Positions 25,597 through 64,000 of a stretch of 64,000 nt of DNA are shown in pieces. A model generated the notes under the pieces. The model saw only the letters and a list, made by a program, of their open reading frames with translations. It made no database searches and had not been told where the DNA came from. How positions within the stretch are numbered: the stretch's first letter is position 1; every line of letters begins with the position of its first letter. The DNA lies in NCBI RefSeq assembly GCF_000021985.1, contig NC_011901.1:1302001-1366000 (forward strand). The letters run 5' to 3'. The stretch comes from Thioalkalivibrio sulfidiphilus HL-EbGr7 (GTDB lineage: Bacteria; Pseudomonadota; Gammaproteobacteria; Ectothiorhodospirales; Ectothiorhodospiraceae). The position numbers were made by a program, and so were the translations under genes.

Positions 25597-25785
25597 GGGG
25601 TGAGGAGTCAGGGGGCAGGCAGGGCAGGCAGGGCAGGAGGCAAGCGATCGGGGGAGATGTAACGCGTGCGTAGGTCGGCCTTCAGGCCGACAGCAGAGGC
25701 TTCGATAAGCAGCGGCGTCGGCCTGAAGGCCGACCTACGGTTCACCCGAGGCCCCTCACTCCTTACTCCTCATTCCTCACTCCCT
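25590..25785. repeat. Nested inverted repeat: heptamer arms around a REP-type hairpin
   Basis: Outer left arm: GGGGTGA, GGGGTGA, GGAGTCA, GGGGGCA, then GGCAGG-type units from 25590. Outer right arm: TCACTCC, TTACTCC, TCATTCC, TCACTCC (25756-25783), the inverse of the left. Inside, CGTAGGTCGGCCTTCAGGCC (begins 25669) pairs with GGCCTGAAGGCCGACCTAC (ends 25738). The inner hairpin is the same type as at 22987 but with paired G/C swaps (GGGCTTCAGCCC against GGCCTTCAGGCC). The gap 25597-25868 holds no gene. Confidence 0.88.
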
Positions 25786-25795
25786 GACCGAATTG

Positions 25796-25809
25796 TTGAC
25801 CTCGGTCAT
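25796..25809 (+). promoter_or_regulatory. Possible FNR/ANR box upstream of hemN
   Basis: TTGAC-CTCG-GTCAT has the size and symmetry of an FNR site (TTGAT-N4-ATCAA), with 4 of 5 matches in the left half and 3 of 5 in the right. It lies 60 bp before the hemN start. HemN works without oxygen and is a classic FNR/ANR target, which makes this site plausible though imperfect. Confidence 0.45.
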
Positions 25810-27266: not shown

Positions 27267-27322
27267 TCAAAGACCCTCAACGCAAAGACGCGAAGACGCA
27301 GAGGGCGCAAAGAAAGTCTTTT
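27267..27322 (+). repeat. Left 56-bp inverted arm of the DUF2721 cassette
   Basis: It begins at the base after the hemN stop. It is built of octamer-like units (ACGCAAAG, ACGCGAAG, ACGCAGAG). I aligned it by eye with the reverse complement of 27933-27988: 49 of 56 positions match. Together the arms bound a 722-bp segment holding one gene. Confidence 0.88.
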
Positions 27323-27405
27323 GGGGAAAACAATCATTAAGGCTTTACTGATCCGCGGACTGGCATGCATTCGCGATCACTTTCCCGCTAACATCCTGGG
27401 ATTAC

Positions 27406-27888
27406 ATGGCCACCCGGGACAGCACCATGCCAATCTTCATGGAATCTCAGCCCGCCGAGATCTCCCAGGTGATCCAGCTGGCGGTTGCGCCGGTGTTCCT
27501 GCTGGCGGGCATCGGCGCCTTCATCAACGCCTTCGCCAACCGGCTGGCCCGGGTGGTGGATCGCAGCCGCAACCTGGAATCGGGCATGAGCGCCCTGGGG
27601 GACCACGCGGCCAGGGCCGCCGCCTATCGTGAACTGAACACCCTGAGAAAACGCGCCCGCCTGGCCTACCTGGGCATCGCCCTGGCAACCCTTTCGGGGC
27701 TGTTCGTTTGTCTGCTGATCGTGTTCGCCTTCCTGGACCACTTCTTCACCCTGGACCTGCCGGAGATCGTCGGCGGGCTGTTTGTCGCCGCGATGCTGTC
27801 CCTGATCGGCGCACTCATCACCTTCCTCCGGGAGGTCTTCCTGGCCGTACGCAACCTGGCGCTGCTGTACAAAGGGCCGGGAGAATAG
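27406..27888 (+). CDS. DUF2721-family membrane protein
   Basis: 160 residues with three hydrophobic segments (about 23-45, 88-112 and 120-143). The first is followed by INAFANRLARVVDRSRNLE, typical of DUF2721 proteins. The function of the family is unknown to me. It is either a 160-residue protein from 27406 or starts at the ATG at 27427 (MPIFMESQPAEIS), which better matches the domain. The gene sits alone between two 56-bp inverted arms (27267-27322 and 27933-27988) and has no functional link to hemN or the downstream thioredoxin fusion. The placement suggests insertion as a unit. Confidence 0.8.
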   Translation: MATRDSTMPIFMESQPAEISQVIQLAVAPVFLLAGIGAFINAFANRLARVVDRSRNLESGMSALGDHAARAAAYRELNTLRKRARLAYLGIALATLSGLFVCLLIVFAFLDHFFTLDLPEIVGGLFVAAMLSLIGALITFLREVFLAVRNLALLYKGPGE

Positions 27889-27932
27889 AAAAGGGGAAGT
27901 TGAACCGCGAAGGACGCAAGGGTTTTACTTCA

Positions 27933-27988
27933 CAAAGACTTGCTTTGCGTCCTCTGCGTCTTCGCGCCTTTGCGTTGAAGGCTTTTGA
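27933..27988 (-). repeat. Right 56-bp inverted arm of the DUF2721 cassette
   Basis: Reverse complement of the arm at 27267-27322 (49 of 56 matches by eye, including GCGAAGACGCAGAGG without mismatch). It ends 14 bp from the stop of the convergent hydrolase/thioredoxin gene. A second, partial unit (CCGCGAAGGACGCAAGG, 27905-27921) precedes it. Confidence 0.88.
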
Positions 27989-29351: not shown

Positions 29352-30209
29352 CTACCGCACAGGCGTCTCCAGCAGGCGTTCGGCGTTGCGCCAGGCCAGG
29401 GCCTCGGCCAGTTCCGGGGGCAGCTGGGTCAGCCAGTGGCGGGTCTCGGCCACCAGTGCATCGAACTGGCGCCAGCGGTTGGGGCTGAAGGTGTCCATGC
29501 CCACCATGAAGCGGTCCGGGAAGCGCTCGAACAGCGCGGCCCATTCCGGATCAAGGACCCCGTCCGGGGCGATGCGCTCGTTGCGCATGGACAGGTCCAC
29601 GTACAGGTTCTCGAAGCGTTCCAGGTACAGGCTGATGAAAAACGGCACCGGCACGGTGCCCGCGTGGGCCCAGAGGAGGGTCACCCCGGGGGCGTGCTCG
29701 AACAGGCGCTCCACGACGCCATGGTCGCCGTGCAGTTGCAAAATCAGGCCGCGCGCCTCGGCCAGCCGGGCCATGTCGCGGATCACCTCCGTGCCGGCGT
29801 GCTCCGAGAACAGGTGGAATTCGCCGATGCCCCGCCAGTGGCCCCACTCCAGCCACTGCTCCAGCCAGGGGATCAGGTCCGGGTCCGAGTGGTAGACGTG
29901 GCGGTCCTCCCGGCTGCGGTAGGGCATGAGGAAGGGCACGATGCGCTCCGGCGCCGCCTCGTACAGGCGCTGGGTGGCCTCGTTGGGCCGGCTGGAGAAC
30001 AGCGCCCGGGACACGTGGTTGCGGTCGAGCTTGGCCAGGATCTCCTCGGGCGTCCAGAGCCCCGCCGCGCCGCCCACGTCCGGGCCGCTGTAGTGCAGGT
30101 GGGTATCGAAGATGGGCAGGTCCGCATCGGCGGCCAGGGCACCGGCGGTGCCTCCCAGGACGACCCAGAGGAGCATGCTGATGAGAGCGGTGCGCGTGGT
30201 GTATCTCAT
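29352..30209 (-). CDS. Periplasmic amidohydrolase-2-like protein
   Basis: 285 residues. The signal peptide (about 1-27, GALAA-DAD) shows export. The mature protein starts with [10 protein letters not shown], the metal-binding HxH of amidohydrolase (TIM-barrel) enzymes. [12 protein letters not shown] (near residue 140), LQLHGDHG (near 170), LLWAHAGT (near 187) and VGMDTFS (near 248) supply further possible ligands. Export is unusual for this superfamily, most members of which are cytoplasmic. The substrate is unknown; no pathway partners are nearby. It is divergent from aroC. Confidence 0.72.
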
Positions 30210-30266
30210 GAGTCCAGTTTACCGTCCCGTGGCACGCCGAATCACCCGCCCACACCCCGCGCCCTC

Positions 30267-30275
30267 TGCTACAAT
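30267..30275 (+). promoter_or_regulatory. Extended -10 promoter element of aroC
   Basis: TG-C-TACAAT is a good extended -10; I see no clear -35. Transcription would begin at about 30282-30284, on top of the aroC ATG at 30283. No ribosome-binding sequence lies between, so a leaderless transcript is implied if this promoter is used. Confidence 0.45.
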
Positions 30276-30282
30276 GCGCGCC

Positions 30283-31383
30283 ATGTCAGGAAACAGCTTC
30301 GGAAAACTCTTCACCGTCACCAGCTTCGGCGAGAGCCATGGCCCTGCCATCGGCTGCATCGTGGACGGCTGTCCCCCGGGCATGGCGCTCACGGAGGCGG
30401 ATCTGCAGAACGATCTGGAACGCCGTCGTCCCGGCAAGTCCCGGCACACCACCCAGCGCCGGGAGACCGACGAGGTGCGCATCCTCTCTGGCGTGTTCGA
30501 GGGGGTCACCACCGGCACGCCCATCGCGCTCATCATCGAGAACGTGGACCAGCGCTCCAAGGACTACGGCAACATCGCCGACCGCTTCCGCCCCGGGCAC
30601 GCCGACTACACCTATTTCAAGAAATACGGCCTGCGGGACTATCGTGGCGGCGGGCGCAGCTCTGCGCGCGAGACTGCCATGCGGGTGGCCGCCGGCGCCA
30701 TCGCCAAGAAATACCTGCGCGAGCGCTATGGCGTGGAGATCCGCGGCTATCTCGCCCAGCTGGGCCCCATCGCCCTCGAGCACAAGGACTGGGACGTGGT
30801 CGAGACCAATCCCTTCTTCTGCCCGGACCCGGACAAGGTGGCGGAGCTGGAGGCCTACATGGACGCCCTGCGCAAGGAAGGGGATTCCGTGGGCGCCCGG
30901 GTCAACGTGGTGGCCACCGGCGTGCCGCCCGGCTGGGGCGAGCCCATCTTCGACCGCCTGGACGCCGACATCGCCCACGCCATGATGGCCATCAACGCGG
31001 TCAAGGGCGTGGAGATCGGCGACGGATTTGCGTGTGTCGCCCAGAAGGGCACCGAGCACCGGGACGAGATGTCCCCCGAGGGCTTTCTCTCCAACCATGC
31101 CGGCGGGACCCTGGGCGGCATCTCCAGCGGCCAGGACATCCGCGTGTCCATCGCGCTCAAGCCCACCTCCAGCATCCGCATCCCGGGCCGCTCCGTGAAC
31201 GTGCACGGCGAGCCCGTGGAGGTGATCACCACCGGCCGCCACGACCCCTGCGTGGGCATCCGCGCCACCCCCATCGCCGAGGCGGCGCTGGCCATGGTGC
31301 TCATGGACCACGCCCTGCGCCACCGGGCCCAGTGCGGCGACGTGCAGACCGACATGCCGGATATTCCGGGATCAACACCTTGA
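30283..31383 (+). CDS. aroC: AroC, chorismate synthase
   Basis: 366 residues from the ATG at 30283 ([20 protein letters not shown]), the standard start. It has the chorismate-synthase signatures [14 protein letters not shown], then [26 protein letters not shown] (in adjoining blocks near residue 110), and the C-terminal [16 protein letters not shown]. It makes chorismate from EPSP using reduced FMN, feeding the Trp, Phe, Tyr, folate and quinone pathways. An extended -10 (TGCTACAAT, 30267-30275) ends only 7 bp before the ATG, so the mRNA may be leaderless. The GxxExxY cassette follows 7 bp after the stop. Confidence 0.97.
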
Positions 31384-31390
31384 ACAGCTG

Positions 31391-31430
31391 ACCGCGAAGG
31401 GCGCGAAGGGATGCGCGAAGGACGTGAAGG
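31391..31430 (+). repeat. Left 40-bp inverted arm of the GxxExxY cassette
   Basis: It starts 7 bp after the aroC stop and is made of 9-bp-like units (ACCGCGAAG, GGCGCGAAG, GACGTGAAG). It pairs with the reverse complement of 31826-31865, with about 6 mismatches in 40. The arm contains the start codon of the enclosed gene (31411) and encodes its first residues, MREGREG. Confidence 0.88.
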
Positions 31431-31818
31431 AAAACTGGAACTGGTCGGGCATCAGGTCATCGACGCCTCGATGCGCGTTCACACCCGGCTCGGCCCTGGG
31501 TTGCTCGAAGGGGCATACGAGACATGCCTCGCTCTGGAGTTGCAGAAAAGAGGCCTCAGTGTTGAACGACAGCGGGTAATTCCCTTCGTCTATGATGGTC
31601 ATCAAATCGAGAATGCCTACCGTATGGACCTGCTCATCGAGGAAATGGTCGTTGTGGAGGTCAAGTCTGTGGATCGCTTGAACGATCTCCACCTCGCCCA
31701 ATTGTTGAGTTATCTGCGCCTCGGACAGTTTGCACTCGGCTACCTTCTCAATTTCAATGTGCAGCACATGAAGCAGGGCATTCGACGCGTGGTGAACTCG
31801 CGCGCGACGGTGATCTGA
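31411..31818 (+). CDS. GxxExxY-family protein (PD-(D/E)XK nuclease-like)
   Basis: 135 residues. The family-naming motif is present as GLLEGAY (near residue 31), preceded by HTRLGPG. A PD-(D/E)XK-like core follows: MDLLIEEMVVVEVKSV, with D, E and K in the nuclease spacing (near residues 72-86). The function of the family is not established to my knowledge; the fold suggests nucleic-acid cleavage. Its first seven residues are encoded by the left inverted repeat, so repeat and gene are physically fused. The codon choice is less GC-rich than in neighbouring genes (for example CGT, TTG, GAA, CAA), consistent with foreign origin. Confidence 0.85.
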   Translation: MREGREGKLELVGHQVIDASMRVHTRLGPGLLEGAYETCLALELQKRGLSVERQRVIPFVYDGHQIENAYRMDLLIEEMVVVEVKSVDRLNDLHLAQLLSYLRLGQFALGYLLNFNVQHMKQGIRRVVNSRATVI

Positions 31819-31825
31819 AAATATC

Positions 31826-31865
31826 CCCTCGCGCCCTTCGCGCTTCCCTTGGCGCCCTTCGCGGT
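31826..31865 (-). repeat. Right 40-bp inverted arm of the GxxExxY cassette
   Basis: Reverse complement matches 31391-31430 (longest shared run ACCGCGAAGGGCGC). It starts 7 bp after the stop of the GxxExxY gene and ends 22 bp before the MFS transporter start, so the 475-bp unit exactly fills the aroC-MFS gap. Confidence 0.88.
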
Positions 31866-31887
31866 TCGCTTTTGAAAGACATCAGGA

Positions 31888-33045
31888 ATGCCCACGACCC
31901 CCTACTGGAAACTCTCCGGTTTCTATTTCTTCTACTTCGCCAGCATCGGCGCCTTCGTGCCGTACTGGGGTCTGTACCTGCGCGACCAGGGCTTCAACCC
32001 GGCGCAGATCGGCGAACTCATGGCCATCATCATGGCCACCAAGATCATCGCCCCCAATGTCTGGGGCTGGCTGGCGGACACCACCGGGCGGCGCACCTGG
32101 GTGATCCGCGTGGCGGCGCTGCTGGCGCTGGTGTGTTTCTCCGGGGTGACGCTCTACAGCGGCTACTGGTGGATGGCGGTCATGATGGCCCTGTTCAGTT
32201 TCTTCTGGAACGCCGCGCTGCCCCAGTTCGAGGCGCTTACCATGAACCGCCTGGGCAGCCGCACCAACCGCTACGCCCGCATCCGCCTGTGGGGCTCCAT
32301 CGGCTTCATCGCCTCCGTGGCCCTGCTGGGGCCCCTGTTCGAACGGGTGGAGGTCTCGGTGCTGCCCTGGATCGTGCTGGTGTTGTTGGCCGCCATGTGG
32401 CTGACCACGCTGGTCGTCTCTGACGGTCCGCCCGGGGTTCAGGCGCGCAGCACCAGCTCCCTGCTTGCCACCCTCCGGCGCCCCGAGGTGCTGGCGCTGA
32501 TCCTCGCCTGTTTCCTGATGCAGGCGAGCCATGGCCCCTACTACGCGTTCTTCACCATCTACCTCGAAGACAACGGCTACTCCCGCACCATGGCCGGCCA
32601 GCTCTGGGCCCTGGGGGTGCTGGCGGAGGTGGGGGTGTTCCTGATGATGCACCGCTGGCTGCCGCGCTTCGGCGCCTGGCCCCTGCTCATGGTGGCCATC
32701 GGGGTGACCGCCGTGCGCTGGTGGCTGCTGGCGAGCCTGCCGCAACTGCTGCCGGTGATGCTGCTTACCCAGGTGATGCACGCCGCGAGCTATGGTCTCT
32801 ACCACGCCGCCGCCATCTCGCTCATCCACGAGTTCTTCCCCGGCCGACTGCAGGGCAGGGGCCAGGCCCTGTACTCATCGCTGAGCTTCGGCCTCGGCGG
32901 GGCCTTGGGCAGTCTTGCGAGCGGCTACGTCTGGGACGGGATCGGGCCCCACTGGGTCTACATCATGGCCTCCGGCCTGGCGGCACTCGGCTTCATGGTG
33001 GCCTGGCTGGGTGCCAGGCAGAGTCGACTGTCCGCCTCGGCTTGA
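31888..33045 (+). CDS. MFS transporter, HcaT/MFS_1-like family
   Basis: 385 residues with about 12 hydrophobic segments, in two halves of six. The N-terminus (YWKLSGFYFFYFASIGAFVP) and WLADTTGRR in the loop after TM2 are typical of the MFS_1-like (HcaT/phenylpropionate permease-like) group. The physiological substrate cannot be read from sequence, and neighbouring genes (aroC, leuC) give no clear hint. It may be co-transcribed with aroC through the GxxExxY cassette. It ends 9 bp before the convergent LysR gene. Confidence 0.82.
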   Translation: MPTTPYWKLSGFYFFYFASIGAFVPYWGLYLRDQGFNPAQIGELMAIIMATKIIAPNVWGWLADTTGRRTWVIRVAALLALVCFSGVTLYSGYWWMAVMMALFSFFWNAALPQFEALTMNRLGSRTNRYARIRLWGSIGFIASVALLGPLFERVEVSVLPWIVLVLLAAMWLTTLVVSDGPPGVQARSTSSLLATLRRPEVLALILACFLMQASHGPYYAFFTIYLEDNGYSRTMAGQLWALGVLAEVGVFLMMHRWLPRFGAWPLLMVAIGVTAVRWWLLASLPQLLPVMLLTQVMHAASYGLYHAAAISLIHEFFPGRLQGRGQALYSSLSFGLGGALGSLASGYVWDGIGPHWVYIMASGLAALGFMVAWLGARQSRLSASA

Positions 33046-36094: not shown

Positions 36095-36109
36095 TTCAAC
36101 AGAATGGAC

Positions 36110-36300
36110 AGGATTGACAGGATGACTATCTGAACAAAAGGATTTGACAGGATAACAACTCAAAGAGAAGAAGATCCGACAGGATTAACATGATTGACAC
36201 GATTTCTAGTGCTTTAAATCCTGTAAATCATGTTAATCCTGTCCAATCCTTTCGGATCCTTTGAATCCTGAAATAATCCTGTTCATCCTGTCCATTCGCC
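36110..36300. repeat. Long imperfect palindrome of ACAGGAT repeats between leuD and leuB
   Basis: The outer arm GAATGGACAGGAT (about 36113) pairs with ATCCTGTCCATTC (ends 36298). Inside, 9-bp-like GACAGGATT units recur in direct and inverted orientation. The best inner stem is GACAGGATTAACATGATT (from 36178) against AATCATGTTAATCCTGTC (ends 36243). The AT-rich element interrupts the leuCDB operon and contains no gene. It resembles the arms of the gene cassettes but is empty. Confidence 0.85.
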
Positions 36301-36330
36301 TTTTCAAGTAGATAACCAAGGAACCTGAAC

Positions 36331-63696: not shown

Positions 63697-64000
63697 GGGA
63701 CGGCTTCCTGCGCGGATGATCGATGGATTAGATACTAGCAGCGGTTTTTAACTTCGCTAGTGATCTGGAGCAATTCCTTGGTGGAGAGTTTCGCGAATCG
63801 CCAGGGTCGTGAATTGGCCTTCAAAAAACAGGGTTTCTCGCCAGGACGCGAAGACGCCAAGAAAGGCATTCTTAAATTGAATTGCTTTTCTTGGCGTCTT
63901 CGCGTCTTGGCGAGAGATCAGGCCTTGTGCTCTTGATCGACAAAACTCCATGGTCTCTAATGGACGCTGACCATTCCGTCAGGGTAGCCCCGCCATGTGT
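63697..64000. other. Region upstream of the hydrogenase operon
   Basis: 304 bp with no credible gene. It contains an inverted pair ACTAGC...GCTAGT (63733-63760), a possible operator or weak hairpin just upstream of hyaD, and the strong palindrome at 63836-63915. I see no sigma-54 site in front of hyaD. Any plus-strand gene beyond 63920 is not evident before the window ends. Confidence 0.5.
63836..63915. repeat. Empty 30-bp inverted-arm hairpin of octamer units
   Basis: TCTCGCCAGGACGCGAAGAC (from 63836) and the inverse GTCTTCGCGTCTTGGCGAGA (ending 63915) form arms that match at 28 or 29 of 30 positions, with a 21-bp AT-rich loop. The unit words (ACGCGAAG, ACGCCAAG) are those seen in the arms of the DUF2721 cassette, but no gene is enclosed. 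Confidence 0.88.

Follow-up and report, generated by a model that had tools for sequence, protein, structure and literature searches.

Two described systems come closest to the arrangement reported here. In REPIN/RAYT systems, repeat and protein are described as co-evolving in the available portions of two reports (PMC8266576, PMC3116915). Intervening sequences (IVSs) of rRNA are represented by a 428 nt example whose terminal repeats form a stem with a small ORF in the loop; mobility has been proposed and, in the available part of the source, is left unexplained (PMC4990558). Our literature search, with most subscription journals outside its range, returned no earlier description of arms or hairpins around GxxExxY genes and nothing closer than REP/RAYT and IVSs. 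The excerpts on GxxExxY that it did return only name the family, and arms or hairpins are not mentioned in them. A GxxExxY protein is listed in an algal virus genome in one such excerpt, so that the family name reaches viruses of eukaryotes (PMC12085832).

We analysed a 64,000-nucleotide stretch of the Thioalkalivibrio sulfidiphilus HL-EbGr7 genome, here called the window. At positions 31380-31876 it contains an intergenic unit in which inverted arms surround a GxxExxY ORF, placed between two protein ORFs. The relevant features of the window are the following:

31380-31430, plus strand: left inverted arm, with units beginning at 31393 at 9-12-9 spacing and an imperfect last unit
31411-31818, plus strand: GxxExxY / PD-(D/E)XK ORF, 135 amino acids, with conserved E33, Y36, D73, E83, K85, Q97, Y101 and N114
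31826-31876, minus strand: right inverted arm, from the arm alignment
30112-31383, plus strand: upstream flanking ORF, from the ORF list
31888-33045, plus strand: downstream flanking ORF, from the ORF list
27281-27974, no strand: arm pair of the same style, spacing 8-8-9, around a different ORF of 160 amino acids (27406-27888), from array and ORF reading
36108-36304, no strand: gene-free hairpin region of the CAGGAT/CATGAT arm type, from array detection
63847-63912, no strand: gene-free hairpin with CGCNNAG units, from array detection

Both arms of the GxxExxY unit are 51 nt long and 82% complementary. A preliminary description of the locus had counted about 6 mismatches over 40 bp; the 40-nt core is present and contains 5. 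The same description placed the ATG at 31411 and the first residues, MREGREG, inside the left arm and the stop codon 7 bp before the right arm, and both placements are correct. Its further statement that the unit exactly fills the intergenic gap holds nearly but not exactly, as the neighbouring ORFs, which we take from that description to be aroC (upstream) and an MFS gene (downstream), end at 31383 and start at 31888; the longer left-arm alignment overlaps the upstream stop codon. The strand carrying the unit folds better than 100 of 100 shuffles (z -6.6). No Rfam family matched within the 64-kb window.

Further hairpins of the window deserve mention. The 160-residue ORF is enclosed by arms, and a close relative has a hairpin without this ORF at the site corresponding to 27281-27974; passengers are thus possible, and the difference may reflect either a passenger gene or an arm-mediated deletion. 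At 25611-25796, a TCGGCCTTCAGGCCGAC hairpin apparently lies inside a hairpin of GGGTGAGGAG-type repeats, and the close relative carries a different 7-mer hairpin at this site.

The window protein matched PF13366 (E 1.5e-42, 145 bits against a cut-off of 22) and TIGR04256 (E 8.4e-41, 139 bits against a cut-off of 35). These were the sole Pfam and NCBIfam matches of the ORF, with no known transposase family among them, and by these profile scores the protein is a full-length GxxExxY / PDDEXK_3 member. The D ... (D/E)xK residues of the PD-(D/E)XK superfamily are present as D73, E83 and K85. Across 125 proteins, E83, K85, Q97 and N114 are conserved in 100% and D73 in 98%. Signs of purifying selection were seen in five pairs, with dN/dS of 0.06-0.24, three of the pairs having few changes and two a dS above 1. 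Low dN/dS together with nearly invariant catalytic residues suggests that the gene is probably active and under selection. An AlphaFold model of the protein (pLDDT 92.5) gave Cas4 SSO0001 (Z 9.2), a restriction-like protein (8.2), the Hjc Holliday junction resolvase (6.8) and the XisH excision factor (5.5) as top-ranked folds, all from PD-(D/E)XK nucleases, where a Z below 8 may mean only a common arrangement. Foldseek with this model yielded no match at E 0.001 or better, and a PDB sequence search with the protein no relative at E 10. Judged from the model, a resolvase-like enzyme would suit the four-way junction formed by extruded arms.

The pairing of gene and arms is real and more general than the window. 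Five GxxExxY (TIGR04256/PF13366) genes are found in the window's genome, and 12 of 40 genomes, including this one, carry at least one. Inverted arms scored at least 13 in 23 of 26 oriented loci, the exceptions being L022 and the partial genes L024 and L033. A species-genome scan, run with one peptide query, kept the best 80 of 567 loci and is biased to one clade; the record titles of these 80 span many phyla, with cyanobacteria and an archaeal MAG among them. Among the 78 of the best 80 that were testable for arms, the other two lying at contig edges, scores of at least 16 were reached in 50 and of at least 20 in 34, with 28 below 16. Control windows of the same geometry at the same loci reached 16 in 10 and 20 in 5 of 6412 cases. 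The arms first described around the window gene are borne out by this comparison, with a score of 28.5. The preliminary description had further asked for an enrichment over other small genes, and this was found: in a class sample, 25 of 26 further GxxExxY loci scored at least 14, a value reached in 0 of 30 loci of the ParE genes (PF05016) used as control. Taken together, the data point to a family of hairpin elements that occurs in bacteria of many phyla and has received little recognition.

Each arm consists of 3-4 tandem 7-nt units, mostly CRCNRAG, that repeat every 8-10 nt. CGCAAAG, CGCGAAG, CACAGAG, CACGGAG, CACGGAT and CAGGAT occur as variants among loci. Of the 89 arms whose period was tested, 81 repeat best at 8, 9 or 10 nt. 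The median element core measures 468 bp. In 79 elements, left and right arms agree at the two positions beside the first unit in 99% and 96% of cases, and agreement from position -7 outward is near chance (0.19-0.38 against 0.24-0.27 shuffled). The ends of the element are sharp and symmetric, with roughly TTYAC before the first unit. A general target palindrome was rejected because of this near-chance symmetry outside the units, although nested hairpins exist. Direct repeats of at least 5 nt were present at the ends of 18 of 101 elements (7.3 expected, shuffle maximum 14), with no clear target-site duplication.

The start codon inside the left arm is a local detail of the window element. The preliminary description had suggested surveying many GxxExxY genes for arms that cover the start codon, and had described such proteins as often beginning with short repeats that would be translated arms. 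Inverted arms are common in the survey above, and the idea of translated arms is partly borne out: in 58 of 101 elements no stop codon interrupts the frame anywhere in the left arm, and upstream reading gives strings such as TKDTK and HRDTE. Coverage of the start codon is, however, not general: a start was found in 86 of the 101 elements, with the nearest one in or just before the end of the left arm in 22 of the 86, and an in-frame start strictly within the left arm occurs in 13 of the 101.

We compared arm type with protein type on a tree of 125 proteins, from which L016, L024, L025, L029 and L033 (near-duplicate or partial) as well as L048 and L061 (no clean frame) had been dropped. A unit label was available for 97 of these proteins and lacking for 28. 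Unit type changes 4 times on the tree, compared with 12.6 times in shuffles (minimum 10 in 1000 shuffles), and the edge dinucleotide, labelled for 77 proteins, changes 13 times compared with 25.1 (minimum 21). A Mantel comparison of protein distances with arm 5-mer distances gave an r of 0.37 over 107 elements (permutation maximum 0.14), falling to 0.10 at protein distances above 0.5, where 10 of 999 permutations were as high. The unit types CACGGAT, CAGGAT and CACGGAA fall mainly in another protein clade than CRCNRAG. Arm type hence follows protein phylogeny across phyla. Because gene and arms are linked, simple co-inheritance can also give rise to such concordance. Gene-free hairpins no more than 10 kb away also resemble the gene arms of their own locus more closely than the arms of other loci (0.436 against a permuted maximum of 0.376; 15 loci, 27 hairpins), with their CAC/CGC type agreeing with the arms of the nearby gene in only 17 of 27. 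Since the genes are usually enclosed by arms and arm type goes with protein type, the GxxExxY protein probably acts on the arms.

Hairpins of this kind are dispersed far beyond the genes. A 501-bp stretch of the window matched its own genome 32 times, once to itself and 31 times to its arms, several of these arm matches being close inverted pairs. The three-unit pattern was found 515 times in the window's genome, overlapping matches counted, compared with 16 times for the reversed control pattern. Within 1.17 Mb around GxxExxY genes, 313 arrays of at least two CRCNRAG units were detected, compared with 12 in block-shuffled sequence. Neighbouring arrays no more than 1.5 kb apart stand in hairpin order in 108 cases, in opposite order in 34 and in the same direction in 58, and the 108 hairpin-order gaps include 53 of 0-150 bp and 43 of 350-500 bp. 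Seven hairpin-order gaps above 150 bp did not contain the GxxExxY gene already known at the locus, and six of them, all but the 1380 bp gap of L072, were read. Those of 383, 480 and 499 bp turned out to be further GxxExxY genes and that of 211 bp an internally deleted one; the 159 bp gap has no clear gene, and the 1077 bp gap encloses an unrelated gene, probably by chance. Among 274 class genomes, 42 carry the gene, and at least 10 pattern matches occur in 24 of these 42 compared with 14 of the 232 without it (p 7e-14). The remaining 18 gene-bearing genomes have fewer than 10 matches, and five of them (G065, G072, G078, G210 and G271) have none; in G078, G210 and G271 the arms are of other unit types. 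One query each found GxxExxY in 0 of 50,697 phage records and 8 of 72,556 plasmid records.

We propose that gene and hairpins form a pair resembling REP/RAYT, in which a PD-(D/E)XK nuclease would recognise and spread its own hairpins, and we assign this reading a probability of about 60%. The full element would be an inverted arm pair with 3-4 tandem units per arm and a GxxExxY gene filling the loop, and gene-free hairpins with like arms would be its non-autonomous copies. The protein is predicted to bind the arm units, and its PD-(D/E)XK site would cut the hairpin or a cruciform. In this way it may mobilise or copy hairpins into intergenic spaces and into loops of hairpins already present, similar to the action presumed for RAYT/TnpA-REP on REPINs, with a different nuclease fold.

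Alternatively, RAYT/Y1 transposases could move the hairpins, with GxxExxY as a passenger. Y1_Tnp (PF01797) is present in 36 of the 38 genomes with at least 10 matches and in all five genomes of the genus, and arrays go with Y1 transposases overall (36 of 186 genomes compared with 2 of 88). Among Y1-positive genomes, however, the GxxExxY gene still predicts arrays (23 of 39 compared with 13 of 147), and G112 and G130 have 69 and 111 pattern matches with no Y1_Tnp match. Among 30 Y1_Tnp loci in the genus, an array lies no more than 700 bp away in 2, and flanking unit arms are found at this distance in none, for which reason Y1 transposases were rejected as owners of the arms; we consider it extremely improbable that they move them. 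The Y1 loci (L272-L301) have inverted repeats of their own, scoring at least 14 within 700 bp in 23 of 30 and often of GGGGTCA type.

Five congeneric genomes (G000-G004) allowed arms and dispersed hairpins to be followed together. All five carry a GxxExxY gene beside a common flank, which we take to be trpE-trpG (one flank matched in 5 of 5). Arms at this shared site are spaced 9-8-9 in G000, G003 and G001 and 8-8-10 in G004 and G002, the gene being truncated or partial in G003 and G001. Four-unit genome matches of spacing 9-8-9 and 8-8-x, respectively, number 99 and 35 in G000, 49 and 34 in G003, 10 and 2 in G001, 10 and 79 in G004, and 5 and 24 in G002, and the arm spacing of the shared-site gene predicts the commoner hairpin spacing of the genome in 5 of 5 congeners. 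G000 and G004 are the closest pair by flank matches, yet they differ in spacing. The shared-site protein L030 is 79% identical to L019 of the more distant G002 and 56% identical to L009.

Site-by-site alignment of G000 and G004, with flanks about 95% identical, resolved seven 9-8-9 sites of G000. In G004, the spacing is 8-8-9 or 8-8-10 at five of these sites, another has a CAGGAT hairpin, and the seventh is unchanged. Ten CAGGAT rows comprise six of the same type in both genomes (four paired hairpins and two unpaired arrays, the latter maybe chance), three in which the G000 hairpin is nested within another hairpin, and one coding-sequence match. No change was seen at either locus of spacing 9-12, one of which is the window element. 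G000 and G004 have in common the CAGGAT gene (L013/L034) and the 9-12 gene (L011/L025). Read by overall similarity, 26 partly overlapping detections gave 6 same hairpins, 10 other hairpins, 2 other sequences, 2 absent and 6 without assignment.

These observations bear on a homing-like conversion, in which the nuclease cuts existing hairpins and repair proceeds from hairpins of its own type, so that a master gene converts the set in place and no new sites arise. The five switched sites fit this explanation, as do the four CAGGAT hairpins and two 9-12 loci that keep their type and the shared-site gene, which differs in the same way as the hairpins do. On the other side, the pattern comes from seven sites in one genome pair, and the reading by overall similarity counts one switched site (G000A 46960) among the same hairpins, so that spacing may also drift in place. 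Replaced hairpins moreover have little arm sequence in common, and the three nested CAGGAT hairpins of G000 look like plain insertions. We regard this homing-like conversion as unlikely. A related version, according to which a new GxxExxY type at the master site would drive the concerted rewriting of the corresponding intergenic hairpins to its arm code and leave the hairpins of other resident genes unchanged, is somewhat less doubtful, and we put it forward only tentatively.

The REP/RAYT-like pair that we favour would involve moving or copying hairpins into sites, and site histories across relatives include empty, deleted and replaced states. Empty sites in relatives had been suggested as a check in the preliminary description, and three genomes from a different genus of the family indeed have an empty site at the position of the window unit. 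The site is full in G000 and G004; G003 has an internally deleted copy that retains both arms and the gene ends, and remnants are left in G001 and G002. At a second site, G015, G048 and G022 are empty and G002 has a remnant; other copies with CAGGAT arms are found there in G001 (intact) and G003 (broken). A third site has the gene in G000 and G004 and a gene-free CACAGAG hairpin in the same gap of G002 and G003. Another palindromic family, CTAGCCCGCATATCTCACC...GGTGAGATATGCGGGCTAG, is polymorphic between close genomes (G000 C1 ~1299167-1299431, G004 C7 near 28501).

Neighbour orientation, based on rough ORF calls, was available on both sides for 49 elements: 31 lie in sense and 4 in antisense between co-directional genes, and the neighbours are divergent for 10 and convergent for 4. 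The 31 sense elements start a median of 16 bp past the upstream stop codon and end 25 bp before the next start. Such a tight fit would be expected if the arms were RNA-stability or terminator hairpins of the host in which a separate selfish or useful gene had settled. Host-function hairpins do not explain gene-arm matching and are thus disfavoured: arm type tracks the protein clade across phyla, and spacing tracks the resident gene within the genus. The sharp, symmetric ends described above also speak against this explanation, which we hold to be very unlikely.

PF05635 genes, the family of the IVS protein, were rejected as a negative control, with ParE used instead, because they have arms of their own. 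Inverted tandem-7-mer arms scored at least 14 in 27 of 30 PF05635 loci of the class genomes (L212-L241). In the arms that were long enough, the best period was 7 in 24 of 24 and CRCNRA units occurred in 0 of 24. By analogy, these genes may belong to a parallel element family.

Analogous arms at PF05635 genes are also compatible with GxxExxY units being RNA-level elements like the 23S rRNA IVSs. The transcript hairpin would then be excised by RNase III and re-enter hairpin loops, with GxxExxY as an RNA-binding or RNA-cleaving factor. IVSs replaced rRNA tetraloops according to the available part of one report (PMC4990558), and nested hairpins occur here. The excess of sense over antisense elements points in the same direction; it is modest relative to the local excess of same-strand genes (p 0.004), however, and may only reflect selection for read-through expression. 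Furthermore, DNA is the usual substrate of PD-(D/E)XK enzymes, and the solved structures that rank highest against the model are DNA nucleases. An RNA-level mode consequently appears improbable, if less so than host hairpins.

If the REP/RAYT-like reading is true, a widespread small protein gains a role and many unexplained intergenic hairpins gain an owner. The idea of hairpin repeats kept by a dedicated nuclease would then exist with an unrelated nuclease fold. The IVS parallel would give a handle on the origin of rRNA intervening sequences, and in vitro tests of specificity could build directly on the gene-arm code, made up of unit type and spacing. Should in-place replacement hold and the PF05635 elements belong with it, a prospect we can only offer as tentative, the two together would make up a new, arm-coded class of hairpin element whose movement relies on loop invasion or homing and not on classical transposition.

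Compared with known systems, the elements share terminal inverted repeats and internally deleted derivatives (L094 and the G003 site) with insertion sequences and MITEs, and differ from them in that the window ORF lacks a known transposase family and a target-site duplication is not clear. 23S rRNA IVSs, as far as described in the available part of the source, are similar in unit size (428 nt compared with the median core of 468 bp), in their terminal inverted repeats and in the one small ORF in the loop, whereas the window unit does not lie in 23S rRNA and its protein belongs to PF13366 and not to PF05635 (S23 / four-helix-bundle). With REPIN/RAYT (TnpA-REP), the elements have in common dispersed intergenic inverted-repeat hairpins and a cognate single-gene nuclease. 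The protein is of PD-(D/E)XK type here and of HUH/Y1 type there, the arms are tandem 7-nt units at 8-10 nt spacing here and REPs with a GTAG-type tag there, and Y1 loci of the same genus are without unit arms (0 of 30). By this analogy, the GxxExxY hairpin system would work like REP/RAYT, with a presumed nuclease step of its own, while not being a member of it.
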